The notes under the pieces are model-generated. The model searched no databases, was not told the DNA's origin, and worked only from the letters and a program-made list of their open reading frames with translations. This document shows, one piece after another, positions 1 to 16,615 of a DNA stretch of 35,764 nucleotides. The DNA is from Pseudobacteriovorax antillogorgiicola (GTDB lineage Bacteria > Bdellovibrionota_B > Oligoflexia > Oligoflexales > CAIYRB01): assembly GCA_945862295.1 (NCBI GenBank), contig CAMAXT010000020.1, positions 1-35,764 of the forward strand. The letters are read 5' to 3'. Numbering within the stretch: position 1 is the stretch's first letter; the number at the start of each line of letters is the position of its first letter. Both the position numbers and the translations under genes were made by a program.

Positions 1-2555
1 TAGAGCTGACGTCTCCGCAGTTGTTTCTTGTCGATTCAGGATCGGTGCGGATTACGCAATCAGGCTCTTCCAGCGAGATTTCGACATTGCTAACCGAAGG
101 TGCTTGGTTCGGCGGTGTGTCTATGGAAGCACCTCATATATATCCCTACACTTGCACTATCGTTGAACCCGCGAAAATTCGAACTCTTGATCTCACCCGA
201 GAAATCACAAGTGAATTTGAACGCCTCCAACTTGTCGAGTCACTACATGATGAGCCTTGGATTCAATTCACTAATAAAAATGGAACCACAGATAACACAA
301 TTTCGCCGCAGCCAGGAATCCGATTGGGTTTGCCTGATTTGATTAAACTCGGAGTAAAATTCAATCCAGAGGATCTGCATTTTAGTTCCTCAGATCATGG
401 TTCTATTGTCGCTTCCATAAAGAACGTCGCAGAAATTCATCGGACTCCCTATAACCGCCATAATATCTCCGTCGAAGCGGGCCAATTTCCGATACTATCT
501 CCGCTAAAGGTAGCAACGATTCTTGAAGCCTACGGACTGGTTGGAATGGCATTGAAGACTAAGTTCGAAGATCTTGCCCGCCAGGAAATGCCTTTGCTGA
601 CAGTTTACGGAAGCAGGTACGTAGCAGTCCTGAATGCGACTAAAAATTATGTAATCATTGCCGATCCCTGTGTTGGATTCGTGCTTGTTGACAAATTAGA
701 TTTCGAAAGTAGGTGGAATGGTCAGGTCATAGAAGTTCAACCTGATGAACTTGCTACTATTCGCGTTAACACAACGAGCGATGAGGGAAAACCAGAGTCA
801 GAATTGCTCAAAGGTTTAATGAGAAAAACTCGGCAAGCTATCGTTCGAGTAGCTTTAAAACAAAAAAGCATGCTGACAAATATTGTCGTACTAAACATCA
901 TCTTGTTGCTGATTGGAGCGATTGGCCCGAAGATTACGGAAAAAATCGTCGATGATGTCCTGTCTCTACGGGACTGGAATGCAGTGGTAACTCTCACTGT
1001 CGCGACGGTTCTAGTCATGTTTACCACTTTAATAATATCGGTTCTTCAGACGGCAGCGAGGATTGAATACACGCACCGATTGAATCAAAGAATTTTCGAT
1101 CTATTCTATCGCCACTATTTACGAATAAAAACTTCTGATCACAGTAAAAATAGGGTTGGAGACTTTGGAGCACAGTTTTCGGAAATCAACACACTGAAAA
1201 GTTTCTTTACTACTGCACCCATACAAATTGGCATGCAATTAGCCTCAATCATTCTCTATAGTTTTCTTCTAATGCAGTATGATACCCAGCTCGCACTCAT
1301 GGCTTTCGGGCTTTTACCAATAATTGTTGCAATTCGTTTTGTCCACCTTGCCCGCGTCAAACAAAATTATGAAAAGCAATATGAAGTCGGCAAAGAAGGC
1401 GGCAGTCTTATCACTGAGGCTGTATCCGGAATCGCGACCATTAAAAGCCTAAATGCAGAAGACATCGTTCGAAAGAAACTGGAAAAAAATAACGTCGCCG
1501 GTGGAATATTAGAGCGTCAGGTGGAAATGGAAGGCGTCACCATAAATGGATTTGTAACGATTCTTACAACAGCAGTTTCAACAGCAGCTATGTGGATCAG
1601 CCTTAAATTAGCCAGTCGAGGAGAAATTAGTATCGGTGAAGTGGTTGCGATCAATGCTTATTTCGGTTCTCTTGCTGGACCTATTATTGGTTTAGCTGGG
1701 TTCTTCACTCAAATCGAACAGATTAAGGTTTCTTGGAAACGAGTCGCTGAAACTCTTGCTAAGCCACCGGGCGAGAGTGAGCTCAAGTCAGTCGCAAATC
1801 AATCGGTTATTCTTAAGGGAAAAATAAAAGTTGAAGGATTGTCATTTCGTTACGACGCTGATGCGCCATGGGTTCTTAAGGATATAGATTTTGTGATCTA
1901 TCCGGGCCAAACGGTTGCGATCGTCGGCAGAAGCGGCTGTGGCAAATCGACTTTGGCGAATATTATAGCCAACAATTTGACTGCTACGATTGGGCGGGTT
2001 TTCTTTGATGGATACGAATCAAATCAGTTAAGTGCATCGAGCAAAAGAAGTCAGATAGGAGTTGTTCTCCAAGAAAATGAGCTGTTTGAAGGTACTATTG
2101 CTGCCAACATCGCATATTCGGACGATGCCCCTTTAGATACTGATGTTGTACATGCAGCTGTCGGATCAGGCGCATCTGAGTTTATTGACGGCCTCCCTGG
2201 CCAATACAATTACTATCTCGGAGAAGGTGGTAATGGTCTTTCGGGGGGGCAGAGACAACGGGTTTCTATTGCTAGAACACTTTTCAAAAATCCACGAATT
2301 TTGATCATGGATGAAGCGACCTCAGCTCTAGACTCAGAATCAGAAAATCTTATTATGCGAAACATGAATCCCATTACTCGGGATAGAACCTCGCTGATTA
2401 TTGCGCACCGCTTGTCCACAATCAGACACGCAGACCGTATTCTGGTGATGAAAGATGGCGCGATTGTGGAAGATGGTTCGCACAGCACACTACTAGCAAA
2501 ACAGGGCTACTACTCAGAGCTGTTTGTTGACCAAATATCATCAGGAGTAGCATAA
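1..2555 (+). CDS. ABC exporter with cNMP-binding-like and degenerate C39 domains (5' truncated)
   Basis: Inner-membrane type I secretion/PCAT-like ABC exporter. The frame is open to the left edge (first full codon at base 3), so the start lies outside the window; the TTG at 21 is only the first possible internal start. Counting from that TTG: end of a cyclic-nucleotide-binding-like beta fold (about 1-80), a C39-like domain (about 95-250), a six-helix membrane domain (about 280-570) and a nucleotide-binding domain with Walker A GRSGCGKST (636-644), signature LSGGQ (740-744), Walker B ending MDE (763-765) and H-loop His796. The C39 domain has no catalytic Cys, and the position matching the catalytic His is Arg199; the Asp (Asp215, ADP) remains. 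It is therefore probably a non-cleaving substrate-binding domain, as known for HlyB. It is followed 3 nt later by a second exporter with an intact C39 domain, which suggests a heterodimer. Confidence 0.92.
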   Translation, partial: ELTSPQLFLVDSGSVRITQSGSSSEISTLLTEGAWFGGVSMEAPHIYPYTCTIVEPAKIRTLDLTREITSEFERLQLVESLHDEPWIQFTNKNGTTDNTISPQPGIRLGLPDLIKLGVKFNPEDLHFSSSDHGSIVASIKNVAEIHRTPYNRHNISVEAGQFPILSPLKVATILEAYGLVGMALKTKFEDLARQEMPLLTVYGSRYVAVLNATKNYVIIADPCVGFVLVDKLDFESRWNGQVIEVQPDELATIRVNTTSDEGKPESELLKGLMRKTRQAIVRVALKQKSMLTNIVVLNIILLLIGAIGPKITEKIVDDVLSLRDWNAVVTLTVATVLVMFTTLIISVLQTAARIEYTHRLNQRIFDLFYRHYLRIKTSDHSKNRVGDFGAQFSEINTLKSFFTTAPIQIGMQLASIILYSFLLMQYDTQLALMAFGLLPIIVAIRFVHLARVKQNYEKQYEVGKEGGSLITEAVSGIATIKSLNAEDIVRKKLEKNNVAGGILERQVEMEGVTINGFVTILTTAVSTAAMWISLKLASRGEISIGEVVAINAYFGSLAGPIIGLAGFFTQIEQIKVSWKRVAETLAKPPGESELKSVANQSVILKGKIKVEGLSFRYDADAPWVLKDIDFVIYPGQTVAIVGRSGCGKSTLANIIANNLTATIGRVFFDGYESNQLSASSKRSQIGVVLQENELFEGTIAANIAYSDDAPLDTDVVHAAVGSGASEFIDGLPGQYNYYLGEGGNGLSGGQRQRVSIARTLFKNPRILIMDEATSALDSESENLIMRNMNPITRDRTSLIIAHRLSTIRHADRILVMKDGAIVEDGSHSTLLAKQGYYSELFVDQISSGVA

Positions 2556-2558
2556 AAA

Positions 2559-5500
2559 ATGGAAGGATCGAAAGCTTTAGATTTGCAGGATGTTTCGCAA
2601 GACTTACTTGCTACGGAGTTTTTTTTAAAACTGCGTTCCAAATCGATCTTCACGTTTCTAAAGCTTAACGAAGCTAAAAAAATTCTGCAGAAGACAAAAG
2701 TCGAAACATATCTTCCAGGCCAGACTATTCGCCAAACATCCCCAAAGCAGGAACTGATACTTGTGGCCGCAGGAGCGGTAGCTGTTTGGGAAGATCAAAG
2801 CAGGGTTGGTCGGAACAGCCGGAAAGTGCGTGAAGTAACTGATGGTCAAACAATAGAATTGGATAGATTTCTAACCGGTGAGAATGAATGGGCAACGAAA
2901 TGGGTTGCGGAAACTGAATGCACTATTCTTCGAATAGGCTCGCAAGCTTTGCTCGCCTCTCTTTCCAAGACCCCCGATCTCCTTGAATACCTGACTATTA
3001 TTACGCAGAATCCGGAAATCCAGAAACTTAACCGTGATTTGAAGTTAGTCGGTGTTACGCAGGCCCAGGCACAAATCGTTGTTAGAAGCTTGTCGAAAAT
3101 GGAATCTGAGGATATCAAGTCGATTAATTTGAATTCCGGTGCGCTAGTTATCTCAATAGCCGGTGAATTAATTGTTCGTGGCCGCGTGGGCCAACACTTT
3201 CGCTCAATTGGCCACGCAGTCGGGGGAAGTTACCTATACATAGTAGAAAAAGATCATGACCTACAAATAGATCCTAGCCCCGGCGCACAGTTTTGGGTTT
3301 TAAAGAGAGAGCAATGGGAAAAATTCTCTTTCAAAGAACAATTCGAAAGCTTTCTTGATGACGTAGATACAGTAAATTCTGTTCTAAAGTCTTTTGACAA
3401 ACTTGCAACGAATGACGACAAGAGAAGCCGGACCAAGAATTATGAGCAATACGATGACGGAGAAGATCCGTCTTCATTTTTGTCCGACGATGAACAACCT
3501 ATTCCCTCAAAAAGAAAGATGAGAGGACTTAAGCAGCACGATGAAATGGACTGCGGTGCAGCGGTCATGGCGACAATTGCCAAATTCTATGGGAAGCATA
3601 TTGGCATCCCCCGGTTTCGCTCGCTCATACAAGTGACCCGCGAGGGCGCTACATTATTGGGACTAAAAAGAGGCGCGGACATCGTTGGATTCCGAACCTG
3701 TGGCATCATTGCCAAGCAATATAAATCTGTTTCGAAGTTAAAGCGTCCATTCATAGCGTTGATGCGGCGGCATTACATCGTCGTTTATCATGTCTCGAAA
3801 GAGTCGGTATCTGTGTTTGACCCCGCAATAGGTCCAAACACGATTACTTGGAAAGAATTTTTTAACGAATACAGCGGTAACTCCTTTTGCCTAATACCAA
3901 CAGAGGAATTTTACAAACAACCAGACTCCAAACCGTTTTATTGGAAATATTTTACGATATTTAAAGGATTTGGTCGGCAATGGGGCGCGATCAGCTTACT
4001 GGCGATCATTAGTTTTGTCGTTGGTCTGGGTATGCCGCTTATACAGCAATTTTTATTCGATACTGTGTTGCTGGACCGTGACTTCAATTCGATTGACCTT
4101 ATGGCAGCAGGATTGATGTCGATTGCGGTGTTTAGTCAGGTTCTAAGCTGGATGCAGTCCTATCTCACGACCCATTTCACATCAGCTGTAGATGTGAAAT
4201 TTACGTCCCTATTTCTGCAAAAAATAATGTCGTTGCCGATGGGCTACTATGCAGTGAGGCGCGTTGGAGATATTACGACCAGAATCGGTGAACTGAAGAA
4301 GATTCGCGCCTTTTTCAGTGCAAAACCCTTGCTTCTGTTTTTTAATTTCCTGTCGGTCTTCGTCTACGGTTCTGTTGTTGCGTTCTATAACATCTATATA
4401 TTTGCAGTTGCGTTGATCTTTATTCCTATTATGTCTGGTTTGGTAATCTGGATCACGCCTCGGTTAACGGAATTGCACGCAAAAAAATACCGAGCGCAAG
4501 CCCGATCGTCATCAACAGCTGTCGAGCAGATTCGCGGATTAGCGACATTGCAGTCACTCGGAGCGGAAACAGCAGCTCGCTGGAAGTGGATGACTAGAAT
4601 ACTTGAGACATTCGAGCTTGATCGTAAGATGGGATACCTTGGATCCAGCTTCAATGTAACAGCGGGACTTTTGAACCAGTCTATTTCATCTGTGATTCTT
4701 TTAATGGGTGTCTACTTTTACATTCAAAATGAACTTACTTTTGGTCAGGTCATGGCTCTTACAGCGCTTTCAACTCAAATGATATCACCTGCAGTTGCCT
4801 TGGTGAACGAATATGCCCAGTTTCACGAGATGGGTGTTAGTTTGGCACGCGTTGACGACGTGTTTACTGCTGCTCCAGAACGCTTGCAGGAAGTAACTAC
4901 TAAAGTTAGTCCCGATCACTTTCTCGGTGACATTGTTTTAGAAAAAGTTTCCTTCAAGTATGGAGGTGAACTTTCTGACAATGTTTTGAATAACATCAAT
5001 ATGACAATAGCTGCTGGTGAGACAATCGCATTAGTTGGTCGCAGTGGATCTGGGAAAACAACACTTGGTCATATGATTACCGGTCTTTATCAGCCTCTCC
5101 ACGGTACAATACGCTACGGCGGGATTGATCAAGCTCAGATTCCTCTTGGACAACTTCGAACAAGTGTTGGTGCCATAATTCAAGAAAACACTATTTTTAG
5201 CGGCACGATATTCGATAATGTAACTATGGGTGATCCCCAAGCTACCTATCAGAAAGCTGTCGATGCGGCAAAAAGAGCTGATTGTCTCGATTTCATACTA
5301 GAATTACCCAATGGTTTTCACACCGACCTTTCCGAAAACGGCGGAGGCCTATCGGGTGGGCAACGGCAGCGTCTAAACATTGCAAGAGCGCTATATCGCG
5401 ATCCACCTATTCTCGTTATGGACGAAGCGACTAGCGCACTTGATTCTTTGTCGGAGAAAGTTGTTATGCAAAATACCGGTCAAAGATCAGGAAAAACGAC

Positions 5501-5654
5501 AGTCATAATTGCGCACCGGCTCAATACTATTATCAACGCTGATCGAATATATGCTCTGGATCAAGGGGAAATAGTTGAGTTTGGAACGCATCATGATTTA
5601 ATGGCAAAACATGGTCTCTATTTCAAACTTTTCCGCAATCAGATGACGATGTAA
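2559..5654 (+). CDS. Peptidase-containing ABC transporter (C39 peptidase, cNMP-binding-like N-terminus)
   Basis: Bacteriocin/leader-peptide processing ABC exporter of 1031 residues. Two successive cyclic-nucleotide-binding-like folds occupy about 20-145 and 160-290, and a charged linker covers 290-325. The C39 peptidase domain (325-455) keeps the full catalytic set: oxyanion Gln326, Cys332 (DCGAA), His405 (RRHYIVVY) and Asp421 (FDPAIG). A membrane domain (about 470-770) precedes the ATPase: Walker A GRSGSGKTT (827-835), LSGGQ (931-935), MDE (954-956) and His986. C39 domains of this family cut leader peptides after a double-glycine motif during export, so a secreted peptide substrate is expected. 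None was found in the window. At about 1000 residues it is longer than classical PCATs (about 700) because of the N-terminal folds. An AGGAG at 2542-2546 lies 12 nt before the ATG, and translation is probably coupled to the upstream gene. Confidence 0.94.
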   Translation: MEGSKALDLQDVSQDLLATEFFLKLRSKSIFTFLKLNEAKKILQKTKVETYLPGQTIRQTSPKQELILVAAGAVAVWEDQSRVGRNSRKVREVTDGQTIELDRFLTGENEWATKWVAETECTILRIGSQALLASLSKTPDLLEYLTIITQNPEIQKLNRDLKLVGVTQAQAQIVVRSLSKMESEDIKSINLNSGALVISIAGELIVRGRVGQHFRSIGHAVGGSYLYIVEKDHDLQIDPSPGAQFWVLKREQWEKFSFKEQFESFLDDVDTVNSVLKSFDKLATNDDKRSRTKNYEQYDDGEDPSSFLSDDEQPIPSKRKMRGLKQHDEMDCGAAVMATIAKFYGKHIGIPRFRSLIQVTREGATLLGLKRGADIVGFRTCGIIAKQYKSVSKLKRPFIALMRRHYIVVYHVSKESVSVFDPAIGPNTITWKEFFNEYSGNSFCLIPTEEFYKQPDSKPFYWKYFTIFKGFGRQWGAISLLAIISFVVGLGMPLIQQFLFDTVLLDRDFNSIDLMAAGLMSIAVFSQVLSWMQSYLTTHFTSAVDVKFTSLFLQKIMSLPMGYYAVRRVGDITTRIGELKKIRAFFSAKPLLLFFNFLSVFVYGSVVAFYNIYIFAVALIFIPIMSGLVIWITPRLTELHAKKYRAQARSSSTAVEQIRGLATLQSLGAETAARWKWMTRILETFELDRKMGYLGSSFNVTAGLLNQSISSVILLMGVYFYIQNELTFGQVMALTALSTQMISPAVALVNEYAQFHEMGVSLARVDDVFTAAPERLQEVTTKVSPDHFLGDIVLEKVSFKYGGELSDNVLNNINMTIAAGETIALVGRSGSGKTTLGHMITGLYQPLHGTIRYGGIDQAQIPLGQLRTSVGAIIQENTIFSGTIFDNVTMGDPQATYQKAVDAAKRADCLDFILELPNGFHTDLSENGGGLSGGQRQRLNIARALYRDPPILVMDEATSALDSLSEKVVMQNTGQRSGKTTVIIAHRLNTIINADRIYALDQGEIVEFGTHHDLMAKHGLYFKLFRNQMTM

Positions 5655-5656
5655 AT

Positions 5657-7108
5657 ATGGAAAAATTTCTATTCACATGGATCACTACTATTTACCTTTT
5701 TACCGCGCCTTCGTTAGCGTCAGCTTCTGACTTCGATGCGTGGTTCAAACAGGTGTGGGTACCTATTCAGGCTAGTCCACAATACGAAGGCCTGGATTCC
5801 AGGATTAAATCTGCGAATTTTGAGTCCGAAGCAGCGCTTTTGCGATCGCCGTGGACGACGACCTCGACCCTTTCAATCGATGAAGCACGACCCATCGAAA
5901 CTGAAAATGAGACGAGGGAAGTTCGTACACATATATTTTCGAACGAACTAAAATATGTTTTCGATGCGGGCACATTGGCCTCAATGAATTTAGGTGTCAA
6001 CTATGTAGATGCAAAAAATCAGAAGAACCCCTTCGTACCAAATTCAGCGACAGACGCGAAATCGCGTGTCTATACAACATCTGCTAGTTTAAGCCATGAC
6101 ATTAATCGAGAAGGTAACCGCGGTTTTTCCAAGACTTCCAGATCAAGAAATCAGGACCTATCGCTTTCAAACAAATGGAATATCATCCAGGCAAAACTCG
6201 ACCTAGAATTGCAGATATTTCGGCAACTTCTTGATTATTACGTTGCTCGATGCAAGTTGGAACGACTAGAAGATTCCAAGGAGCTCGTAATATGGGTACT
6301 GAAACGAGGCGAGGCTCAGGTCAAAGCAAATCTCATCTCTCAGACAAATTTTCTCAGTTTTAAAGATTTGGAGACCTCGGTAGAACGACAGATTTCTGGT
6401 CAAATGTCTATTGTCGACGGCTATGTAGTTAATTTAGAAAGAAACGGTACAAAGTTTGTAAGTTCTCTATTAAAAGCTTCGGAAAAACATCGTTTTTTAT
6501 GCAGTTTCCCGTCGTCAAAGGACCCTTTCGCCGAAACAAAAAATTTGTTGAATGCGACCAAGATTGAAGGAACGGAGTTTCCTTCAGCAGTAAGTGCTGG
6601 CTACCGGAAACAGGCAACAGAAAAATCAGCAAAAATTCAACGACTAGAGTATAAACCCAGCGTTAGTCCGTTTGTCTCGGGCCAATGGAACAATAGTATC
6701 GATTCAGAAACAGAGACTGGGTCGGTGTCTCTAGGTGTTTCGTTCTCGTGGAATATTCCTGGACGGAAGGGCGATCTTTTGCAGCAGTCGACTCGCGAAG
6801 AACTCGAGTCCGCGACAAAAAGTTATTACTCCACTGTCGACCTGAACAATTCTATTATTGCGAATCTAAAGGCACGTTTAGTTGCTGCGGAAAGAACTTA
6901 TCAAGTGATTAAAAAGTCGGAAAGTTCGTCTGAGTTGCTTTTGACTGCACTCAAACAAGAACTAGCGATTGGAACAATAGATCCACTAAATTATGCCAGT
7001 GCCGCTTTAAATAAGATTTCAATTGAACAATCATCTTTGGAAGTTTGGTCAACTATCACCTCTCTCCATTTTGAAGTAGAGAGATATTCTCAAGCCTCTA
7101 AGCTTTGA
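5657..7108 (+). CDS. TolC-like outer-membrane efflux protein
   Basis: Outer-membrane channel of the TolC/OEP family, 483 residues, the usual size. A signal peptide is visible at 1-23 (hydrophobic core, then SLASA). The mature part has long, hydroxyl- and charge-rich helices with beta-strand stretches, for example SVSLGVSFSWNIP, arranged as two related halves. It starts 2 nt after the stop of the C39 exporter gene, so it is almost certainly in the same operon and supplies the outer-membrane exit. No HlyD-type adaptor gene lies in the window. The 3' end overlaps the convergent glycosyltransferase gene by 19 bp. The family call rests on architecture and context more than on a single motif. Confidence 0.85.
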   Translation: MEKFLFTWITTIYLFTAPSLASASDFDAWFKQVWVPIQASPQYEGLDSRIKSANFESEAALLRSPWTTTSTLSIDEARPIETENETREVRTHIFSNELKYVFDAGTLASMNLGVNYVDAKNQKNPFVPNSATDAKSRVYTTSASLSHDINREGNRGFSKTSRSRNQDLSLSNKWNIIQAKLDLELQIFRQLLDYYVARCKLERLEDSKELVIWVLKRGEAQVKANLISQTNFLSFKDLETSVERQISGQMSIVDGYVVNLERNGTKFVSSLLKASEKHRFLCSFPSSKDPFAETKNLLNATKIEGTEFPSAVSAGYRKQATEKSAKIQRLEYKPSVSPFVSGQWNNSIDSETETGSVSLGVSFSWNIPGRKGDLLQQSTREELESATKSYYSTVDLNNSIIANLKARLVAAERTYQVIKKSESSSELLLTALKQELAIGTIDPLNYASAALNKISIEQSSLEVWSTITSLHFEVERYSQASKL

Positions 7109-8196
7109 TCGATAAAAGCGAAAACAACTTTCGCTGCGTCAGCCACAGTAGGGTAATCAGATAGGTCCAAGGGATCGATGTCGTCTATCGTCTCTAAAGA
7201 TCGTTGAATCAGATCGCTGAATCTTTGCTGAGAGAAGAATTGGGGTTTGATGACTCCAACAGCGTTTCCCCTCACCCAGCAAGCCTGCGCTAACATTTCT
7301 TGATCGGCAAACTGAGGTAGGCATACCATCTTTAGTCCAAGCTTGAGTGCCTTCATAACAACACCAGCGCTGCAATGTGTTACAAGTAAAGAACAGTGAT
7401 TGAATAACTCGCTGTGAGGAACACCACTAACGAAGGTGATATTCGGAGATGGAGCTTTCATCCCCCAATTTCCATCAATAATTACCTGTTGGTCGAGTTC
7501 GGAAAGTACGTTTAGTATTACTTGCAAATAGTCGCGGTCTACAAACGACGCAAATGAACCGAGACTTACTACTATCAGACCTCCCGGGCGTAGATTTACC
7601 TCATCAAACGTTGATACTGAGCTGAACGGAACTTGCTTTTCGGGCAGCCAGCTGTGTGAAAGGTGCCAATGCTTAGGAAGCGTTACTGTAGAACAGTCAA
7701 AAATACGGTCTATAGGCAGTGATACTAAGTTGGGAATTCTGCCGCAATTGGTGTTGATATCATCAAGTGGTGCCGGCGTTAAATGGAAAATACCAAGCTT
7801 TGTTTTGCTTTCGATTTTCTTCTGAAGGTCTTGCAGACAGTAAAGATAGAAATAGTGGATTAGTACCAGATCGTAATGAGTAGTCTGGAGGACGTTGGAA
7901 ATCTTCGATGGAACATCCATTAAGTTATTGCTGATGTTACGAATGAAGTGGCCGGTTCGTTCTGAGACAGTGGAAAAAGTGAAAGCGTACTTGAGTGCGT
8001 CTTCAATTGCCTGAGCAGGTAACAAAGGGGTGAAAGAGTGCTCCTTCGATTCATTGAATCTGAAATTATCAGGACCCATATGGTCGACTTGCACTCCGAG
8101 GGCTAGGAGACTATTCATAAGTTCTTGACCCTGGCAGAAATCGCCGAAGGTGCCGAAATTAACAAGTAATACTCGTTTTTGTAGTTTTCCTGACAA
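7090..8196 (-). CDS. GT1-like (MGT/UGT) glycosyltransferase
   Basis: GT-B fold glycosyltransferase resembling macrolide and UDP-sugar glycosyltransferases, 368 residues. The N-terminal Rossmann half opens with RVLLVNFGTFGDFCQG, matching the family's GxxGDxxP-type loop. The C-terminal half has the nucleotide-sugar site: a GLIVVSLGSFAS strand-loop, then ITFVSGVPHSELFNHCSLLV, THCSAGVV (family HGGxGT position) and PQFADQEMLAQ. The usual HGG is changed to HCSAG, so donor binding may differ. The start is a TTG at 8196 with AGGG about 7-10 nt upstream; no later start would keep the conserved first strand. It probably transfers a sugar to a small molecule or lipid; the acceptor is unknown. It diverges from the next gene across a 62-bp spacer. 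Confidence 0.85.
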   Translation of the reverse strand: MSGKLQKRVLLVNFGTFGDFCQGQELMNSLLALGVQVDHMGPDNFRFNESKEHSFTPLLPAQAIEDALKYAFTFSTVSERTGHFIRNISNNLMDVPSKISNVLQTTHYDLVLIHYFYLYCLQDLQKKIESKTKLGIFHLTPAPLDDINTNCGRIPNLVSLPIDRIFDCSTVTLPKHWHLSHSWLPEKQVPFSSVSTFDEVNLRPGGLIVVSLGSFASFVDRDYLQVILNVLSELDQQVIIDGNWGMKAPSPNITFVSGVPHSELFNHCSLLVTHCSAGVVMKALKLGLKMVCLPQFADQEMLAQACWVRGNAVGVIKPQFFSQQRFSDLIQRSLETIDDIDPLDLSDYPTVADAAKVVFAFIDQSLEA

Positions 8197-8207
8197 AGTC
8201 CGCCCTA

Positions 8208-8236: not shown

Positions 8237-8261
8237 TTATTATACAACTTACAGGATCATG

Positions 8262-9200
8262 ATGTCCGATCAAATTAAGCGTCCTGGAATAATTCAGCGC
8301 TCCCAGTTTTGGGACTTAGTGCAACAAACGCGTGCGTTTGAGTCCAAACATCGCCTGCGGTTTTTCCGAGCTTATTTTTCATGGTTAAGCTCCCAAGTCA
8401 CCTACCGTGCTCCAAGTCTTCCTGAGAAATTCACGGTTATCCTATTGAGTTTTCGCCGCTACAGGAATATTTCTGCAATTGTCGACGCTGTACTAGCTTC
8501 CAACATCGCTTCTGAGATTATTGTCTCTAACAATAATAAAGACATACGAATTAAATCCTGGGTGAAATCAAAAGATCCTATCGTAAAATGCCTCGACCAA
8601 ACCGAAGATTACGGCCCTATCATTAGGTATTTCCTTGCAAGCCAAACTAGCTCTGACTATTTTATGTCGATTGATGACGACTTGTTTCTGTTTCCCCACC
8701 AAATTTATGAACTGGCGCGAGGTTTGCTTACAGAGCCGCAAGTTATTCACGGTGTTTGGGGTCAGGATATCGTAAGGATTCCCTCTTTAGAACCCCTAAC
8801 CGAGGAACAAGCGATCGCCAAAGGTTGGATCTACCAAATTGAGCAACGCGATTGCCGGGTTGATATAATGAATAGGGCTTACGCCTTCTGTCGATCGCAT
8901 GCGAAAAAAACCATATCAATTTATGATGATCTTGTGAGACAGCATCCTGAACAAAAACAAAAATACTCGCATTTGTCAGACGACATCTTCATGAGCCTTT
9001 CGGGAGAGGGAAAACCAATTTGCCACAATTTAGGGGCATTGCTAAATTGCCCATCCTCAAATCTTCCAACAAAGGCAATCAGCGGTAGTGAGATTTTTCA
9101 TAGCTTCCGGCATGATCTTTACTGCCGTTTGACAACGTCATCTGAATCGTTAAAGCTAACGAGAGATTTTGCTAAGTACTTTTTGAAGTTCAGCGCTTAA
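8262..9200 (+). CDS. GT-A glycosyltransferase, GT64 (exostosin)-like
   Basis: Putative glycosyltransferase of about 312 residues. A GT-A beginning FTVILLSFRRYRNISAIVDAVL is followed by EIIVSNNN and the metal-binding DxD-type motif in SIDDDLFLF, all in the order found in the exostosin-like GT64 family. A late HLSDDIFMSL segment may carry the catalytic acid of the second half. The upstream ATG at 8259 is in frame, but AGGA (8253-8256) sits only 2 nt from it and 5 nt from the ATG at 8262, so the second was chosen. GT64 is best known from animal heparan-sulfate enzymes, with scattered bacterial members; the family call is from motif order only. The last 45 bp overlap the convergent GT2 gene. Donor and acceptor are unknown. 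Confidence 0.78.
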   Translation: MSDQIKRPGIIQRSQFWDLVQQTRAFESKHRLRFFRAYFSWLSSQVTYRAPSLPEKFTVILLSFRRYRNISAIVDAVLASNIASEIIVSNNNKDIRIKSWVKSKDPIVKCLDQTEDYGPIIRYFLASQTSSDYFMSIDDDLFLFPHQIYELARGLLTEPQVIHGVWGQDIVRIPSLEPLTEEQAIAKGWIYQIEQRDCRVDIMNRAYAFCRSHAKKTISIYDDLVRQHPEQKQKYSHLSDDIFMSLSGEGKPICHNLGALLNCPSSNLPTKAISGSEIFHSFRHDLYCRLTTSSESLKLTRDFAKYFLKFSA

Positions 9201-9983
9201 CTTTGAACTAGTGCTTTCTGCATATAGCTTGCAATAGTACTCCACCACTTTTTCGATGGTATGTTTTCTCACCTTTTCCTGCTGTTCAGTCCCTCGATAG
9301 ACTCCTAAAAATTCTCTTTCAATCAGATTGCTAATCGCCCGAAAGGAAAACTCGAGATCGAGGGATCTGCTGTCGTTGCCTTCATTCCGTTTAAATAAGT
9401 GAGGCGAACTGATAGCCCCGAATCTTGTGTTGGTTCCCATTCGAAACCAGAGGTCAAGATCTTCCATGTGGTCGGTACCTTCGACAAAACCGCCTGATTC
9501 CAAAAAAATCGATCGCTGAATGACCATGCCGCTTGGGAAAGCAACGATGAACGGGTTTCGTTCATCAAGGAAATCGTCAAAAACTTGGAAAAGTGGTCCT
9601 GTTGCACCGATATTCTGATTTTCTCCCGGCGCTCCGTAAAGCATATCGAGCGGGTGCGACGCAAGAACGTTCTGAAAAGTTGCCAGGGAATACGGATAAA
9701 GTTCGTCATCGCTGTCAAGAAATAGCAAGTATTGCCCGTTAGCCACTTCCGCGCCACGATTTCGCGCGCCTCCAGGGCCAAGATTTATTGATAAATCGAC
9801 ATAGGTATCGGACTTGATCCGTTCAGATAAAAACGTTTTTGTCGCAAAGTCGGATCCATTCTCAACTACGATCAACTCAACCGAAACGTTTCGGCTTGCT
9901 CGCACTGATTCCATTGCTTGTATAACTTTTGTTGTTCTTCGAAAAGTAGGTACAACGACTGAAAATGTGACCGGTGTCGTCAC
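9156..9983 (-). CDS. GT2-family glycosyltransferase
   Basis: Family 2 (GT-A) glycosyltransferase, 275 residues. The N-terminus TFSVVVPTFRRTTKVIQAMESV, followed by VELIVVENGS, NLGPGGARNRGAEVANGQYLLFLDSDDEL (DxD motif) and a downstream MEDLDLWFRMG segment (family ED/DLWLR-like motif), is diagnostic. No membrane segment is seen, so it acts in the cytoplasm. The GTG start shares a GTGA overlap with the stop of the upstream radical SAM gene, so the two are translated as a coupled pair. Its 3' end runs 45 bp into the convergent GT64-like gene. The sugar and acceptor cannot be told; coupling to the radical SAM enzyme suggests both act on the same intermediate. Confidence 0.9.
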   Translation of the reverse strand: MTTPVTFSVVVPTFRRTTKVIQAMESVRASRNVSVELIVVENGSDFATKTFLSERIKSDTYVDLSINLGPGGARNRGAEVANGQYLLFLDSDDELYPYSLATFQNVLASHPLDMLYGAPGENQNIGATGPLFQVFDDFLDERNPFIVAFPSGMVIQRSIFLESGGFVEGTDHMEDLDLWFRMGTNTRFGAISSPHLFKRNEGNDSRSLDLEFSFRAISNLIEREFLGVYRGTEQQEKVRKHTIEKVVEYYCKLYAESTSSKLSAELQKVLSKISR

Positions 9984-11047
9984 AGAAAATCCAAACTTAA
10001 AGCATGATGGGACGGAGTATAACTCGATAGATGAGTAAGGTTTCCAAGATCAATACGTGGGTCATTAAAAACCGGATCTTGTAGAACTTCCACCAGCAGG
10101 TGATGTTCAGGATGTGAAGCCTGATGGACGGCTCGTTTGATATATTCTGCTGAACTTAGATTACCCCAGTTATCTATATGGGTGAAGATGACATTAAAAT
10201 CGAGAATTTCTCGTCCGAGACGGGCAAATTCCTTCATCTCCGAATAGTTATTCTGCTGCACGACAAAACTGATGTGAATCTTCGCCCTAATATCTTTTAT
10301 GAATTCGAGATTTCGCATCAGTCTCTTGAAACTACCGCCAGGTCGGTTTATTCGGTAGGTCGCACTGGTCGCAGCGTCGATTGAAATGTGTGCGGATTTT
10401 ACAAGAAAATGAATATGCGATAACTTTTTCCAATTTTCTTCATTCCACATCTGCGCATTTGTGTGCAGATGAATCAGTTTTAGATTGGGATATTTCTCAG
10501 GGTCTAATTCAACAAGTAGTTTGTTGAGTGTCGGACTACTAAACGGGTCACCGTCTCCCGATACATAGAGCTCTTCAATTGACTGGGAAAAGGACGAAAG
10601 TGCATCGTTCTGAAGTACTTCGAGTCGGTGCTGCTCTTTTTCATTGGCGCGAATGAATCCGTTCCGGCAACTTGGGCATGCTAAATTGCAGGTCCGGTCA
10701 TGGCTGAAGTAAATCTTTTTCGGACCCGAAGGTAGCATTGTGGTTTTTTCTTCGATATACATCCGCAATGCGGGATCCTGGATTTCCGACACTTTCTTTA
10801 CAAATCCGGATTTTTTAGTAAGGTGCGGACAAGTCGGCTTGCATAGCGAGAATGTTCCGTCATGAATGGAACTGCGAATCTGTTGCGCAGCAGACGAATT
10901 CCAGTCAGCCGATAAAGAGCCTTTGATTGTCTTACCAACGGATACCGGAAGCCATGCAGGACAGCAGATCCAATTTTGACCACCATTCCCGAACATTAAC
11001 AGCTCGAATGGTGCTGTACAAAACATCTTGTCAACTTTACAAGTCAT
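9980..11047 (-). CDS. Radical SAM enzyme with N-terminal SPASM-like domain
   Basis: S-adenosylmethionine radical enzyme, 355 residues. The core [4Fe-4S] motif is CNLACPSC (Cys120, Cys124, Cys127, CX3CX2C), followed by SIEELYVSGDGDPF (the GGE-like strand) and HISIDAATSATY. Ahead of it, residues 3-76 have the cysteine pattern of a SPASM auxiliary-cluster domain: Cys10, Cys28/Cys29 (ICCPAWLP), an LSADWNSSAAQQIRSSIHDG segment resembling the family's 'iWns..aq.iR..i..G', then Cys69 and Cys73. SPASM normally follows the radical SAM core; here it precedes it. Relatives modify peptides, sugars or protein cofactors. The gene is first in a pair with the GT2 gene (4-bp overlap). AGGA stands about 10 nt before the ATG. 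The substrate is unknown. Confidence 0.88.
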   Translation of the reverse strand: MTCKVDKMFCTAPFELLMFGNGGQNWICCPAWLPVSVGKTIKGSLSADWNSSAAQQIRSSIHDGTFSLCKPTCPHLTKKSGFVKKVSEIQDPALRMYIEEKTTMLPSGPKKIYFSHDRTCNLACPSCRNGFIRANEKEQHRLEVLQNDALSSFSQSIEELYVSGDGDPFSSPTLNKLLVELDPEKYPNLKLIHLHTNAQMWNEENWKKLSHIHFLVKSAHISIDAATSATYRINRPGGSFKRLMRNLEFIKDIRAKIHISFVVQQNNYSEMKEFARLGREILDFNVIFTHIDNWGNLSSAEYIKRAVHQASHPEHHLLVEVLQDPVFNDPRIDLGNLTHLSSYTPSHHALSLDFL

Positions 11048-11067
11048 GTCACAGTTGATCCTATGAT

Positions 11068-11148
11068 TCAGCAGCGAGTATGTTGGAAAATTCTCGGTAG
11101 TTTTTCAATTCGTTCGGGTATTCTATCAAAGTAGCGTATTTCAATCAT
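11068..11148 (-). CDS. Candidate 26-residue mini-ORF upstream of the radical SAM gene
   Basis: Reads ATG to TGA on the radical SAM strand, ending 20 nt before that gene's start. The peptide begins MIEIRYFDRIPERIEK and ends in HTRC; it has no double-glycine leader motif. No convincing ribosome-binding site precedes it. Radical SAM/SPASM maturases often have very short substrates encoded next door (PqqA is about 23 residues), which is the only reason to list it. It could equally be a chance frame in a leader region. A longer in-frame reading, back to 11370, would run into the opposite E1 gene and is rejected. Confidence 0.15.
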   Translation of the reverse strand: MIEIRYFDRIPERIEKLPRIFQHTRC

Positions 11149-11183
11149 GTTTTTTCGGACCGAAATGTGATTTGTGGCTATTG

Positions 11184-11204
11184 TAAGAAAAAGTATTTTT
11201 CTTA
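11184..11204. promoter_or_regulatory. 21-bp perfect palindrome, candidate operator
   Basis: TAAGAAAAA (11184-11192), spacer GTA, TTTTTCTTA (11196-11204): nine paired bases with no mismatch, in the middle of the 270-bp divergent spacer between the radical SAM/GT2 pair and the E1 gene. Size and symmetry suit a dimeric regulator controlling both directions, although the AT-rich arms make chance more likely than for a mixed sequence. It has no T-tract or G/C stem of a terminator. No regulator gene is in the window. Confidence 0.35.
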
Positions 11205-11317
11205 GAAAAAATCGATTGTTGAAGGTACTTGGGGAATGGCTCGGGACTAAACTCCGGCGCGGTACGTTTGAACATTTGATAATATAAAACGCCTGTATTG
11301 CGCACGGAGGATCGATA

Positions 11318-13621
11318 ATGTTTGTGGCTTCTCTCGATAAAATGAACGATTTTCTGCTGCAGTCGATCAAGAGCGGGCGTTTCCCTGAACGTCAGACCGC
11401 ATTTTACAAGGGTAATCCAATCAGTCGTAAGTTGGTTATTGATCTATTTTGTTCTCAATTGATTTCTCGCAATATCGATATGGCTGCAAGAATTCTTCGT
11501 TCGCAAAATCTTTGTTACTACACAATTGGCAGCGCAGGACACGAGGGTAATGTATGCATCGGTGAAATTGCTCGTTTGCAAGATCCTATGTTTTTGCATT
11601 ATCGGAGCGGCGCGTTGTTTGTGCAAAAATCGCGGAAATTAGCTGGAAAAGATATTGTCGACGATCTCGTACATTCTCTATTGAACGATTTCCGGGATCC
11701 AATAGCGGCTGGGCGACACAAAGTTTTTGGAAGCTTTGGAATGAATGTTCCACCCCAGACAAGCACCATCGCTTCCCATTTACCAAAAGCGGTCGGCGCG
11801 GCATTAAGTATCGAAAAATCGAGGAAAATGAATCTCGCCAGTCCCTGGCCATTGGATAGTGTCGTTATCTGTTCCTTTGGCGATGGATCGATTAATCATG
11901 CTTCAGCGCAAGCCGCATTTAACACGACATCTTGGTGTCAGCATCAGCATATTCCAGTTCCAATTCTCTTTGTTTGTGAGGATAACGGATTAGCTGTTTC
12001 AGTTCGCACCCCTCCAGATTGGGTAAAAACGGCAACAGAATTCAGACCATATCTGAACTATTTTCAGGCTGATGGAACAGATTTGTTCGAGACTTATGCC
12101 GAAACCCTTGAAGCCATTGCTCATGTAAGGACGACGAAAAAACCGGCGTTTCTTCATTTGAAAACAGTTCGATTGATGGCGCATGCCGGCTCCGATCTAG
12201 AGAGCCGATATCGTAGCCAGGAAGAAATCCTTCGTGATCAAGAGCAAGATCCTTTGCTACACTCAGCCCGTATTTTGCTCGAAAGTAACTATATCAGTAG
12301 TCTAGAGATACTTAGTCTCTATGAAGAGTGTCGGGACCGTGTTGCTAGTTCGGTAGAGAGACTTTCTGCCTCTGTTATTCTAGCTCCTAAGCACTCTCTA
12401 GTTGGAGAGATGCGCATCAAAGGAAAAATTGGCCCGAAAGCTTTGCCTGTTTCTAACGAGGAGCGAGAAGAAAAATTCGGTGCAGAGTATGCACTTCTGG
12501 ATAGGCCTCAAACTTTAGGCAGATTGATTAATTGGGTCCTAATTGACACATTGTTACATTACAAGAACACTTTGATTTTAGGCGAAGATGTCGCAGAAAA
12601 AGGTGGGATCTATAATATTACTGCTGGTCTCGTAAAGAGATTCGGAACTCACCGCGTTTTTAATACACTTTTATATGAGACTTCGATTCTTGGCGCAGCC
12701 ATCGGATTTGCTCACAACGGCATTCTGCCGATTCCAGAAATTCAATTTCTGTCTTATGTTCATAATGCCGAGGACCAAATTAGAAGCGAAGCCTCAACTC
12801 TTCTCTATCTTTCTAATGGTCAGTTCTCTAATCCGATGGTTATCCGAATTGCAGGTTTGGCTTATCAGGGCTTCGGTGGGCACTTCCACAATGAAAATTC
12901 TCTTGCGGTTTTTAGAGATATACCTGGAATCGTGATCGCTTGTCCCAGCCGCGGAAATGACGCGGTAAACATGTTTCGACGTTGTGTTGATCTCGCCCAG
13001 ACAAAAGATAAAATATGTATTTTTATTGAACCGATTGCCCTGTACGCGAAAAAAGACCTTTATGATGAAGGCGATGGTGCTTGGCTATCACGGTATCCAG
13101 GGCCGGATGCTATTGATATGGATATTGACAGCATAAGTGTTTTTGGTTCGGGGGAAGACATAGCAATTTTTACTTATGGAAATTGTTTACCGATATCCCT
13201 TCAGGCGACTAAAATTTTGAAAGAAAAATATGACTGCAATGTGAGAGTCATTGACCTTAGATGGTTGAAACCTCTCCGTATTGATCAAATAGCTGAACAA
13301 GTGCAATACGTAGAGTCGGTTCTCATAGTTGATGAGTGTCGACCGCAAGGATCTGTTTCTGAAGAAATTTTAGCCGAGCTTGCGGTTCGCGGCTTGCTTA
13401 AAACTCGCAATATAGCTCGAATAACCGCTGCCGATGCATTTGTACCGATTGGTAGTGCAGCTGAACATGTTCTGCCTCAGGTCGAAGATGTGATAAAAAA
13501 ATGTCTCGAGATGACTTCGGGGCAAAAAATAAAATCTATGATCGATCGTCCTGAAATAGCCACAAGTGATGTAGTAACGGCTACAGTGATTTTCGCCAAT
13601 AAATTGCCTGCCAGTTTATAA
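11318..13621 (+). CDS. Fused 2-oxoacid dehydrogenase E1 (alpha-beta), branched-chain type
   Basis: Thiamine-diphosphate enzyme that decarboxylates a 2-oxoacid, 767 residues, with alpha and beta E1 subunits in one chain. The alpha half (about 40-370) has YYTIGSAGHEG, HYRSGAL and the ThDP motif GDGSINHASAQAAFN...CEDN (from 188). The beta half (from about 395) has LILGEDVAEKGGIYNITAGL, FNTLLYETSILGAAIGFAHNG, EIQFLSYVHNAEDQI and the transketolase C-terminal segment DIAIFTYGN...VIDLRWLKPL. It resembles 2-oxoisovalerate dehydrogenase E1 more than pyruvate E1. No E2 or E3 gene is present, so it either uses subunits encoded elsewhere or passes an activated acyl group to a product-specific acceptor. 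GGAGG (11306-11310) lies 7 nt before the ATG. Its last 41 bp overlap the convergent methyltransferase gene. Confidence 0.9.
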   Translation: MFVASLDKMNDFLLQSIKSGRFPERQTAFYKGNPISRKLVIDLFCSQLISRNIDMAARILRSQNLCYYTIGSAGHEGNVCIGEIARLQDPMFLHYRSGALFVQKSRKLAGKDIVDDLVHSLLNDFRDPIAAGRHKVFGSFGMNVPPQTSTIASHLPKAVGAALSIEKSRKMNLASPWPLDSVVICSFGDGSINHASAQAAFNTTSWCQHQHIPVPILFVCEDNGLAVSVRTPPDWVKTATEFRPYLNYFQADGTDLFETYAETLEAIAHVRTTKKPAFLHLKTVRLMAHAGSDLESRYRSQEEILRDQEQDPLLHSARILLESNYISSLEILSLYEECRDRVASSVERLSASVILAPKHSLVGEMRIKGKIGPKALPVSNEEREEKFGAEYALLDRPQTLGRLINWVLIDTLLHYKNTLILGEDVAEKGGIYNITAGLVKRFGTHRVFNTLLYETSILGAAIGFAHNGILPIPEIQFLSYVHNAEDQIRSEASTLLYLSNGQFSNPMVIRIAGLAYQGFGGHFHNENSLAVFRDIPGIVIACPSRGNDAVNMFRRCVDLAQTKDKICIFIEPIALYAKKDLYDEGDGAWLSRYPGPDAIDMDIDSISVFGSGEDIAIFTYGNCLPISLQATKILKEKYDCNVRVIDLRWLKPLRIDQIAEQVQYVESVLIVDECRPQGSVSEEILAELAVRGLLKTRNIARITAADAFVPIGSAAEHVLPQVEDVIKKCLEMTSGQKIKSMIDRPEIATSDVVTATVIFANKLPASL

Positions 13622-14744
13622 AATGTATCGGTTCGCTGATGGAAAACTTTCTGCGAAAGTGTGTAACCGCGTCGCGGCACTCGGGTATCGAACCAAAATC
13701 ATCAATTATCACAAAGCCGCCTGGGCTAACTTTTTGATAAAGGTGAATCAAACTATCCCACGTCGAAGAATACAAATCGCCGTCAAGTCGTAGCAGCGCA
13801 ACTTTCTCGATCGGGCTGGCGGGCAGTGTGTCAGTGAACCAGCCTTCAAGGAAATCAACTTGCTGATCGAGCATACCGTATCGTCGAAAATTATTCTCAA
13901 CGGTACTGCGGCTAACCGCTAGGAGATCACGGTCTTTTTGCGTCATTTGACGGACAGAATCAGAATCCGGTAATCCTTGAAAAGAGTCACATACCCAAAC
14001 TTTTCTACCGCAGTCACCTAAAACCTTCAGAATAGCTCTCATCAGAATTGTACCGCCGCCGCGCCAGACTCCAGCTTCGACTAAGTCTCCCTCTATTCCA
14101 TCTTCTATAATGGATTGAACACATGATTCGATGTTATCTAGTGCATACAATCCCATCATACTATGAGCGCGGAGAGGCCAATCTAGACCATGGCATCTTA
14201 GTGAGATAGTTTCAGGCTCATCGTATATTAGGTCGGTAAGAGTCCGTTTAATTAAATCAATGTACATTGAAACGGGATCATTTTTTTTCGACGCGAAAAC
14301 TTCTCCACCAGTATTTTGAGCGCTTAGCAATTTTAACGCCTGGGTCTGATATTTGATGACTTCTTCTCGTTCAGTCAGCCAGTCAAATACTACAGAAAGT
14401 CTCGCCCAGGGCTCCCATCTTTCCGAGCGCAATTCAATGCAAGTCTTGAGATAGCGAATGGCATCATCTCTCTTTCCCATTCCAATCGACAGCTCTCCCA
14501 AAAGTAATAATGCTTCGTAGCTCGTATCAAGCTGAAGTGAGCGTTGAAGTGCTGAAGTTGCATCAGCGACTCTATCTGCAAGCATCAGATACTTGCCGAG
14601 GTTGAGCCAGTTCCTGCTGCTTTCGGTGTTTGTCGAGCATTTGGATTGGATGCTAGGAATAATTTCGGATAGAAATCGCTGTGAAAGCGGGCCAAAATTT
14701 GCGGAATCTGAACTAATTTCCATAGAAAAGTAAGCCATATTCAA
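13581..14744 (-). CDS. TPR-TylF/MycF-type methyltransferase
   Basis: SAM-dependent O-methyltransferase of the TylF family with a helical N-terminal extension, 387 residues. Residues about 45-140 form TPR-like repeats (ADATSALQRSLQLDTSYEALLLLGELSIG, then DDAIRYLKTCIELRSERWEPWARL). The methyltransferase (about 170-387) shows GDLVEAGVWRGGGTILM for SAM binding, WVCDSFQGLP, and the metal-binding LRLDGDLYSS (Asp321, Asp323) and VIIDDFG (348-349). TylF and MycF methylate sugar hydroxyls on macrolides; TPR fusions are common in polysaccharide and natural-product clusters. The listed start is TTG at 14744; an ATG two codons later (14738) is equally possible, and neither has a clear ribosome-binding site. 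It probably methylates a sugar added by one of the neighbouring glycosyltransferases. Confidence 0.88.
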   Translation of the reverse strand: MNMAYFSMEISSDSANFGPLSQRFLSEIIPSIQSKCSTNTESSRNWLNLGKYLMLADRVADATSALQRSLQLDTSYEALLLLGELSIGMGKRDDAIRYLKTCIELRSERWEPWARLSVVFDWLTEREEVIKYQTQALKLLSAQNTGGEVFASKKNDPVSMYIDLIKRTLTDLIYDEPETISLRCHGLDWPLRAHSMMGLYALDNIESCVQSIIEDGIEGDLVEAGVWRGGGTILMRAILKVLGDCGRKVWVCDSFQGLPDSDSVRQMTQKDRDLLAVSRSTVENNFRRYGMLDQQVDFLEGWFTDTLPASPIEKVALLRLDGDLYSSTWDSLIHLYQKVSPGGFVIIDDFGSIPECRDAVTHFRRKFSISEPIHFINWQAIYWRKSL

Positions 14745-14833
14745 AATTGGGGGAAGACGGAAGTTTCTTATTTGCTGGCTATAAGTTAAAGTATGGCAGA
14801 TTACCGAGCAAGTTAAAATATATTGGAGTTTAG

Positions 14834-15514
14834 GTGAGTACGATCCACAACGATGTTAATTTGGTCGCACTCCAAAAACTAATAATTGAGGCTGACGCCG
14901 AAATTATTAGTCAGCCGATTCTTGATGCTATGTATCAGGGTTCATATGAATATCGGGAAGCTCACATCGTGTCGAGGACTTTGTCTGCAAATGATAGGGT
15001 GTTAGAAATAGGAGCTGGCATAGGATTTTTAACCTGTTTAATGGCGAAAATCCTTCAAAACAAAGAAACTTTAGTGTCTTTTGAAGCAAGCTCGGAACTT
15101 ATTGCTGTCATTGAAAGAAACCTTAAAAGAAACGCCGTTCAGGCAACCATTTTTAATGGTGTCGTGAGTAATACTTGTAATGCATCGGAAGATTTCTATT
15201 TCGGTCGTGATTTCTGGTCTAACTCTGTCTTGTATCAACCAGATGCGAGAATAATTTCCGTCCCGAATTTCAATTTCGAAGATTTGATTCAGCAATTCAA
15301 GCCAACATACCTTACCATCGATATAGAGGGCTCCGAACATGAATTGCTACTATCCAGCTCTCTGAATGGTGTCCAAAAAATCTGTTTAGAAGTCCACCCA
15401 CTACATCTTAGTTCTGTCCAGATGCGTGAGATTTTTGCGCATTTGGATTGTTTAGGATTTTCAGCTGATATGAAGTTATCGTGGGGACAAGTCTTCTACT
15501 TTGAGAAGAAATAG
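14834..15514 (+). CDS. FkbM-family methyltransferase
   Basis: SAM-dependent methyltransferase, 226 residues. SAM-binding motif I is DRVLEIGAGIGFLT (54-65), followed by the acidic strand VSFEAS and a late TIDIEGSEHELL, the FkbM signature. FkbM proteins O-methylate polyketide or sugar hydroxyls. The start is GTG, with GGAG (14825-14828) 5 nt upstream. It is divergent from the TPR-TylF gene (89-bp spacer) and 50 bp before the OYE gene in the same direction, so the latter two probably share a transcript. The substrate is unknown. Confidence 0.87.
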   Translation: MSTIHNDVNLVALQKLIIEADAEIISQPILDAMYQGSYEYREAHIVSRTLSANDRVLEIGAGIGFLTCLMAKILQNKETLVSFEASSELIAVIERNLKRNAVQATIFNGVVSNTCNASEDFYFGRDFWSNSVLYQPDARIISVPNFNFEDLIQQFKPTYLTIDIEGSEHELLLSSSLNGVQKICLEVHPLHLSSVQMREIFAHLDCLGFSADMKLSWGQVFYFEKK

Positions 15515-15564
15515 AAACTCAGTGAACATATATATTCTGATTCGGTAAATATAGGGCTTGTGAA

Positions 15565-16602
15565 ATGTTGTTAACAGATAGATTTTTGAGCCGTGAGCTG
15601 GGCAGTTTGAAAAGTAGAATCGTAATGTCAGCGATGACACGTGGTTTTGCTGACAGCAACAAATGCGCTACATTTGAAATGGCGGAGTACTATCGACGCC
15701 GAGCTGAAGGTGGAGTTGCACTTCTGTTGACAGAGGGAATCATCGTTGATCCGGCCGGAGACGGTTATAGAAATGTCCCGCATCTTACCAATGATCTTCA
15801 AGCACAAAGCTGGACCCAGGTTGTAGATAAAGTTCATGCTGTTGATAGTAAGATTTTTGCACAGCTATGGCACTGCGGACGAATATCGCACGGGGACTTT
15901 ACCGGTGGCATTCAACCAGTATCATCTACTGCCCGCGCTGCTGACGGAATTAATCGGCAAAATAATTTGCCTTATGCTGTTCCGCGTTTTCTCGAGTCTA
16001 ACGAAATACCAACTGTCATTCAGTCCTTTATTCGGGCAGCCGCGTTGGCTGTGGGTGCCGGGTTTGATGGTGTTCAGTTGCATTGCGGCCACGGGTATTT
16101 AATAGATCAATTTCTCGATAGCAACATAAACGACCGTACTGATGCCTACGGAGGCTCAATTGAAAATAGATGCCGTTTCCTTACTGAATTGGTCAAAGGA
16201 GTTATCGATCGGATAGGGAGTAATCGCGTCATTGTAAGACTATCGCCCATCAGAGACATGTCGGGCCTTTATCAGTGGCCAGATTTGATGGCTATGCTGG
16301 AATATATGGTACCGAGATTAGAATCAATCGGACTTCGTATGCTCGATGTAAGCTGCGCTAGAGCTGACTACTTTCAAACTTCTGGTCTTGTTGTAAGAAA
16401 AATCAGGCCGATGTGGAAACATTTAATAATGGGTGGCGCATCGCTCGTGACCGAAGAAGCTGAAACCGAAGTTGCGGACGGTCTTCTTGACATGGTTACA
16501 TGGGGTCGTTTATTGATTGCGAATCCTGATCTCCCCCTTCGCATTGAATCTGGGTTACCTATTTCGCAGTTTTCTCCCGACCTTCTTGGTACTTTATTTT
16601 AA
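15565..16602 (+). CDS. Old Yellow Enzyme-family NADH:flavin oxidoreductase
   Basis: FMN-dependent ene-reductase or related oxidoreductase, 345 residues, a TIM barrel. The N-terminal RIVMSAMTRGFAD phosphate-side strand is followed by LWHCGRISH and the diagnostic GFDGVQLHCGHGYLIDQFL (168-186) with active-site pair His173/His176 and Tyr178 as proton donor candidate, then NDRTDAYGGSIENRCRFL. A C-terminal MGGAS and VTWGRLLIANPDLP complete the FMN-phosphate site. The length suits the single-domain OYE class, with no Fe-S or second flavin domain. It would reduce an activated C=C bond in an intermediate. It closes the accessory cluster and ends 13 bp from the convergent DUF971 gene. Confidence 0.93.
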   Translation: MLLTDRFLSRELGSLKSRIVMSAMTRGFADSNKCATFEMAEYYRRRAEGGVALLLTEGIIVDPAGDGYRNVPHLTNDLQAQSWTQVVDKVHAVDSKIFAQLWHCGRISHGDFTGGIQPVSSTARAADGINRQNNLPYAVPRFLESNEIPTVIQSFIRAAALAVGAGFDGVQLHCGHGYLIDQFLDSNINDRTDAYGGSIENRCRFLTELVKGVIDRIGSNRVIVRLSPIRDMSGLYQWPDLMAMLEYMVPRLESIGLRMLDVSCARADYFQTSGLVVRKIRPMWKHLIMGGASLVTEEAETEVADGLLDMVTWGRLLIANPDLPLRIESGLPISQFSPDLLGTLF

Positions 16603-16615
16603 CACAGCAAAAGTT

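Follow-up and report, generated by a model that had tools for sequence, protein, structure and literature searches.

A candidate glycan assembly and decoration block beside a C39 exporter operon in Pseudobacteriovorax antillogorgiicola

Introduction

When a peptidase-containing exporter stands next to glycosyltransferases, methyltransferases and a radical S-adenosylmethionine (SAM) enzyme, do all of them serve one pathway or are they only neighbours? This question is raised by positions 1 to 16,602 of contig C20 of Pseudobacteriovorax antillogorgiicola (CAMAXT010000020.1), where a C39 ATP-binding cassette (ABC) exporter pair and a TolC-type gene precede a set of such enzyme genes. The window analysed was the whole contig, 35,764 bp in length, whose left end truncates the first gene, and the genome bin from which it derives comprises 3.05 Mb in 157 contigs and is 78% complete. 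A preliminary description, made from the sequence alone, proposed a joint biosynthesis and export locus whose glycosylated and methylated product might be a peptide, with a polysaccharide as the main alternative. The results reported here modestly favour a module for the assembly or decoration of a glycan, lying beside an independent exporter, over a new peptide natural-product cluster, and the polysaccharide fits the evidence better than the peptide does.

Results

Gene content

Gene families were called from the list of open reading frames (ORFs) and from searches with Pfam and NCBIfam profiles. The matches were far above chance level, among them those to TylF (284 bits), old yellow enzyme (OYE, 239 bits) and ABC_tran (109 bits). 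The genes of the block, named o1 to o11, and the region that bounds it on the right are as follows:

o1, 3-2555, + strand: ABC exporter half, truncated N-terminally by the contig end, whose C39-like domain is catalytically dead, with a partial Crp-like domain for binding cyclic nucleotide monophosphates (cNMP) (PF00664, 115 bits; PF00005, 109 bits; PF03412, 37 bits; alignment)
o2, 2559-5654, + strand: ABC exporter whose C39 peptidase is intact and whose N-terminal region is Crp-like/cNMP-binding-like (PF03412, 88 bits; ABC domains; alignment)
o3, 5657-7108, + strand: TolC-type outer membrane efflux protein (PF02321, 59 bits; ORF spacing)
o4, 7090-8196, - strand: GT1-like glycosyltransferase (PF00201, 36 bits; EryCIII-like, 33 bits; UGT/MGT structures)
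o5, 8259-9200, + strand: GT2-like glycosyltransferase of a divergent family (PF00535, 25.8 bits; cut-off, 23.3)
o6, 9156-9983, - strand: GT2 glycosyltransferase, operon partner of o7 (PF00535, 68 bits; radical SAM-GT2 order as in genome G144)
o7, 9980-11047, - strand: radical SAM enzyme with the CxxxCxxC motif preceded by a cysteine-rich auxiliary domain at the N-terminus (PF04055, 43 bits; NF033640, 74.2 bits)
o8, 11318-13621, + strand: fused alpha/beta E1 dependent on thiamine pyrophosphate (TPP) (PF00676, PF02779, PF02780)
o9, 13581-14744, - strand: TylF O-methyltransferase with tetratricopeptide repeats (TPRs) (PF05711, 283.7 bits; MycF/NovP structures)
o10, 14834-15514, + strand: FkbM-family methyltransferase (TIGR01444, 57 bits against a cut-off of 37.7; PF05050, 37 bits)
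o11, 15565-16602, + strand: OYE-type (NemA-like) ene-reductase (PF00724, 239 bits)
Right boundary, 16616-19019, - strand: conserved DUF971-Mrp-TrxB backbone, outside the block (synteny in 8 relatives)

The strands from o1 to o11 thus read + + + - + - - + - + +. The genes o1, o2 and o3, separated by gaps of 3 and 2 bp, respectively, form one operon. The genes o3 and o4 are convergent and overlap by 19 bp, so that the enzymes are transcribed apart from the exporter operon.

The radical SAM enzyme and its glycosyltransferase partner

The gene o7 was the main reason for the idea of a modified peptide, and it had been described as a radical SAM enzyme of the SPASM type. This assignment did not hold, given that the profile search returned no SPASM match in o7 and that, of its conserved cysteines (10, 28, 29, 73, 120, 124 and 127), the extra ones (10, 28, 29 and 73) lie N-terminal of the CxxxCxxC motif. 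The scores with peptide-maturase models were all far below their cut-offs, and the best match was that to NF033640, a model of twitch-domain radical SAM enzymes. With this model and its relatives o7 shares an N-terminal cysteine-rich domain followed by CxxxCxxC, as well as the vicinity of glycosyltransferases, but its score falls short of the cut-off of 170 and by that measure it is not a member.

The closest relative of o7 (42% identity) was found in G144, in a glycosyltransferase-rich run that also holds an ABC-2 exporter pair (ABC2_membrane/ABC_tran). It is immediately followed by a GT2 gene, the best match to o6 in that genome (30%, 1e-17), and both the order and the overlap are those of the window, in which o7 and o6 overlap by 4 bp and form one operon. 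The relative in Paracoccus (35%) is accompanied by GT25 and GT28-type genes, that in G111 (28%) lies in a cluster of nucleoside diphosphate (NDP)-sugar and GT2 genes, and that in G325 (30%) stands among several similar radical SAM genes. No close relative was found in the class, scans of the genome contigs with the o7 protein gave no usable relative, and we found no literature on twitch radical SAM enzymes in polysaccharides. Judged by its relatives, o7 belongs to a glycan-associated radical SAM group. Since the enzyme that had suggested a modified peptide has its relatives in glycan clusters, the assignment of the locus to the ribosomally synthesized and post-translationally modified peptides (RiPPs) is weakened.

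The G325 locus (L136, G325:C1, 9375-17374) contains several radical SAM-like genes in a row, mostly with an N-terminal cysteine-rich twitch-like region, interspersed with NTP-transferase and SGNH-like genes.

Co-occurrence of exporter and enzyme genes

The expected co-occurrence of exporter and enzyme genes across genomes was not borne out. In tblastn searches no homologues of o4-o11 were detected beside 15 other C39 exporter loci (flanks of up to ~10 kb, some of them shortened by contig ends), nor was any C39 exporter present beside relatives of o7, o8 or o9 in the flanks read. In relatives elsewhere, the two halves of the block therefore seem normally to live apart.

In G125, two double-glycine (GG) leader proteins accompany a two-ABC C39 exporter, and the group is separated by 54 bp from an FkbM gene, with a glycosyltransferase gene nearby; the C39 profile of the window exporter had no match in the second ABC of G125. 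At this locus (L140, G125:C106:25001-45000, 1-15925) one of the GG-leader proteins has, by eye, a Hint-like sequence after its leader, and the exporter genes are followed by the FkbM gene and a GT4-type gene.

The exporter operon and its relatives

The description of o1 and o2 as a C39 exporter pair stood in part. Both are ABC halves with C39-type domains, but the peptidase site is intact only in o2. In an alignment with three related exporters, o2 keeps the catalytic Cys, His and Asp (in EMDCGAA, RRHYIVV and FDPAIG, respectively), while in the C39-like domain of o1 both Cys and His are replaced. The C39, ABC membrane and ATPase domains of o2 each exceed the Pfam cut-off, which is the domain composition of a C39 ABC exporter (AMS/PCAT). 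The operon thus encodes one active and one dead C39 half, which probably form a heterodimer, and the TolC-type gene that had been placed beside the pair was confirmed.

Exporters of the HlyB type possess a dead C39-like domain that does not cleave and is yet essential for secretion (PMC6363468). The subunit o1 resembles them in its non-catalytic C39-like domain, with its best score to TIGR01846 (444 bits), and in the presence of TolC; it differs in that it remains below the TIGR01846 cut-off of 725.6 and in that the C39 of its partner half is active. Of the parts of a type I secretion system the window shows the ABC and TolC components. The HlyD_3 matches in the bin (n=3) all stand beside resistance-nodulation-division (RND) pumps, and no secretion-type HlyD was recognised in this 78%-complete bin.

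In the NHLP bacteriocin exporters (TIGR03796, TIGR03797 and TIGR03794), only one of the two ABC halves carries an active peptidase (PMC2887384). The pair in the window has the same composition, but o1 retains a recognisable dead C39 domain and no HlyD is seen. The scores were 477.9 bits for TIGR03796 (cut-off, 853.3) and 332.7 bits for TIGR03797 (cut-off, 709.4), and by these curated cut-offs the exporter is not an NHLP system.

The best matches of o2 (~36%) were an exporter on a cyanobacterial plasmid and another of Caballeronia, both combining a cNMP-binding domain with C39. With exporters of this kind (cyanobacteria, G313, G249 and Caballeronia) it shares the N-terminal cNMP-binding-like region, the intact C39 and the ABC core, at 34-36% identity over C39 plus ABC (31% in G249), whereas the tandem halves and the TolC gene distinguish the window, and an isomerase and HlyD are not in view. 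The cyanobacterial exporters stand with HlyD, a peptidyl-prolyl isomerase (PpiC-type) and tailoring genes, in what we take to be a lanthipeptide-type cluster. The same order of exporter, HlyD and isomerase occurs in G313, and G249 likewise has HlyD and a PpiC-type isomerase, while for Caballeronia the isomerase alone is in view. We found no literature on these exporters. C39 matches were present in 10 of the 383 genomes sampled, the source genome included, and a C39 match to o2 in only 2 other genomes of 58 in the phylum (36% and 28%). Another protein with cNMP-binding domains is encoded at L084 (G000:C138, 2791-4914); it is a multi-pass membrane protein of 708 aa with two such domains at its C-terminus and no other Pfam match, and its neighbour is a lipoprotein in which arginine-rich hydrophobic motifs recur.

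Search for an exported substrate

The window yielded no leader peptide. The only gap that would fit a precursor gene of normal size is the 270 bp upstream of o8, in which the ORFs have no leader. Over the bin, a GG-leader pattern of one consensus form gave 6 matches, one fewer than the reversed control (7), and no N-terminal leader was among them. Precursors of the NHLP or Nif11 type were not found in the window or, by this single pattern, in the bin. Given that ~22% of the genome is missing, the failure to find a substrate or adaptor argues only weakly for its absence.

The remaining enzymes of the block

The three glycosyltransferases had been ascribed to different families; they are indeed three, but of two Pfam types, one UDPGT/GT1-like (o4) and two GT2 (o5 and o6). 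No relative of o5 was found among plasmids. The gene o8, which had been read as an acyl-activating E1, encodes instead a TPP-dependent decarboxylase/dehydrogenase component, 43-46% identical over 92-95% of the protein to the fused E1 of Shewanella, Legionella, Ruegeria and Nonomuraea. Where annotated, these relatives are found beside an acyl-CoA dehydrogenase and, except in Legionella, an acyl carrier protein (ACP) S-malonyltransferase. Neither of the two is in the window, which has an ene-reductase nearby instead. The acyl-CoA dehydrogenase, fused E1 and ACP S-malonyltransferase constitute a recurrent plasmid cassette (L090, L092 and L093), with an aminotransferase added in Ruegeria; we found no literature on it.

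Both methyltransferases and the ene-reductase were identified as first described. The product of o9 is MycF/NovP-like with an added TPR domain, and it exceeds the PF05711 cut-off as a member of the TylF family; together with o10 it would act on sugars. The ene-reductase o11 is an ordinary OYE, with some homologue in 40 of 56 class members. With three glycosyltransferases, TylF and FkbM, and a radical SAM-GT2 pair in common with a glycosyltransferase-rich cluster, the block presents the traits of surface polysaccharide genes. Wzx/Wzy, Wzm/Wzt and NDP-sugar genes were not found by Pfam among the window ORFs, although they could lie leftward, and the block falls short of the definition of a full polysaccharide cluster.

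Boundary and variability of the block

The edge of the block is sharp near 16,610. To its right, the order of DUF971, Mrp and TrxB (usually also DacB) is kept in 8 relatives, and that of an FAD oxidase too in the 4 of them that belong to the same family. Beyond DUF971 these 8 relatives carry unrelated genes, with no homologues of o1-o11 (one of them was readable only ~2 kb past DUF971). The G+C content at third codon positions was 0.41 in the island and 0.44 in the backbone, a small difference, and no convincing tRNA or repeats were found as a mark of integration at the right boundary. A DNA search with positions 1-1500 revealed neither a second copy nor an overlap. The other cNMP-binding matches, those near contig ends included, were considered as the left-hand continuation and rejected, as they were different proteins. 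Since the block is absent from the DUF971 site of the relatives, C39 matches are rare in the phylum and o7 has no close relative in the class, it is a strain-specific, variable stretch of about 1-16,610 that is open to the left.

Elsewhere in the window, positions 26683-31076 encode an AsmA/DUF748-like protein of 1281 aa, directly followed by a DUF1318 lipoprotein; an AsmA-like gene occurs near the same backbone in relatives. At 31100-35764 a large protein is cut by the contig end. It has PD40 beta-propeller repeats, many TPRs and a C-terminal stretch that is CHAT-like by eye, and Pfam gave no CHAT match in it.

Discussion

According to the reading that we prefer, the locus would consist of two modules without a functional link. 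Module A (3-7108) would be a machine similar to those of type I secretion, made up of the active C39 ABC, the C39-dead ABC and the TolC-type duct, which cleaves the GG leader off a peptide or protein, itself not seen, in the course of export through an adaptor, likewise not in view. The genes of module B (7090-16602) would assemble and decorate a glycan or glycoconjugate, to which the glycosyltransferases would add sugars and the TylF and FkbM enzymes O-methyl groups. The radical SAM enzyme o7 with its partner o6 would modify the sugar or its carrier, and the E1 and the ene-reductase would provide an acyl or ketone group or alter it. In agreement with a glycan role, FkbM is named in the literature on flagellin glycosylation islands.

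Several points weigh against this interpretation. The window lacks genes for NDP-sugar synthesis, a flippase, a polymerase and an initiating transferase, which leaves any polysaccharide pathway incomplete in view, and the absence of the usual partner genes of the fused E1 weakens the role assigned to it. Moreover, tblastn searches of flanks miss diverged members, as happened with the FkbM gene of G125. This last locus is a hint that the adjacency of exporter and glycan genes recurs, suggestive as a single case.

In this regard, the alternative that survives best, although we consider it unlikely, is that of one system in which module B would attach sugars and methyl groups to a large protein (an adhesin, an S-layer-like or a motility protein) in the cytosol and module A would export it, with the active C39 domain removing its leader. 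The direct adjacency of both modules in one strain-specific stretch, the intact C39 site of o2, the lack of a flippase or polymerase, consistent with glycosylation in the cytosol, and the FkbM gene adjoining a two-ABC GG exporter in G125 all agree with it. On the other hand, neither the substrate nor the adaptor was seen, and in the sampled loci the window enzymes and C39 exporters did not co-occur. Of the joint biosynthesis and export locus first proposed there remains a glycosylation and methylation block that adjoins an exporter operon, while a functional link between them is unsupported.

Less probable still is a small-molecule or glycolipid pathway, with an unrelated exporter, in which GT1, TylF, E1 and the ene-reductase would tailor a lipid or ketide. 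Enzymes of the TylF, GT1 and OYE types do occur in antibiotic and glycolipid tailoring, and the company kept by the relatives of the fused E1 points in the same direction, but the window contains no carrier protein, synthase or acyltransferase. A more elaborate proposal, which we regard as a long shot, is that dedicated surface-glycan enzymes, acting in the cytosol, would glycosylate and methylate a C39-processed protein and modify it by radical SAM chemistry, and that this protein would then be exported through the active/dead C39 heterodimer under cyclic-nucleotide-like control. Finally, a RiPP cluster, in which the radical SAM enzyme, the glycosyltransferases and the methyltransferases would modify a small precursor peptide destined for cleavage by C39 and for export, is very improbable: C39 exporters often serve RiPPs and the two-ABC layout resembles that of NHLP exporters, but the NHLP cut-offs were not reached, o7 was above no RiPP maturase cut-off and has its relatives in glycan clusters, and no precursor was seen.

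The preferred reading, that of a glycan module beside an independent exporter, indicates that a C39 exporter and a radical SAM enzyme do not by themselves amount to a peptide natural product, and that the relatives of such an enzyme may sit with glycosyltransferases, as those of o7 do. If, on the contrary, the exporter and the glycan genes proved to be one system, it would constitute a Gram-negative export route for a protein decorated by surface-glycan enzymes.

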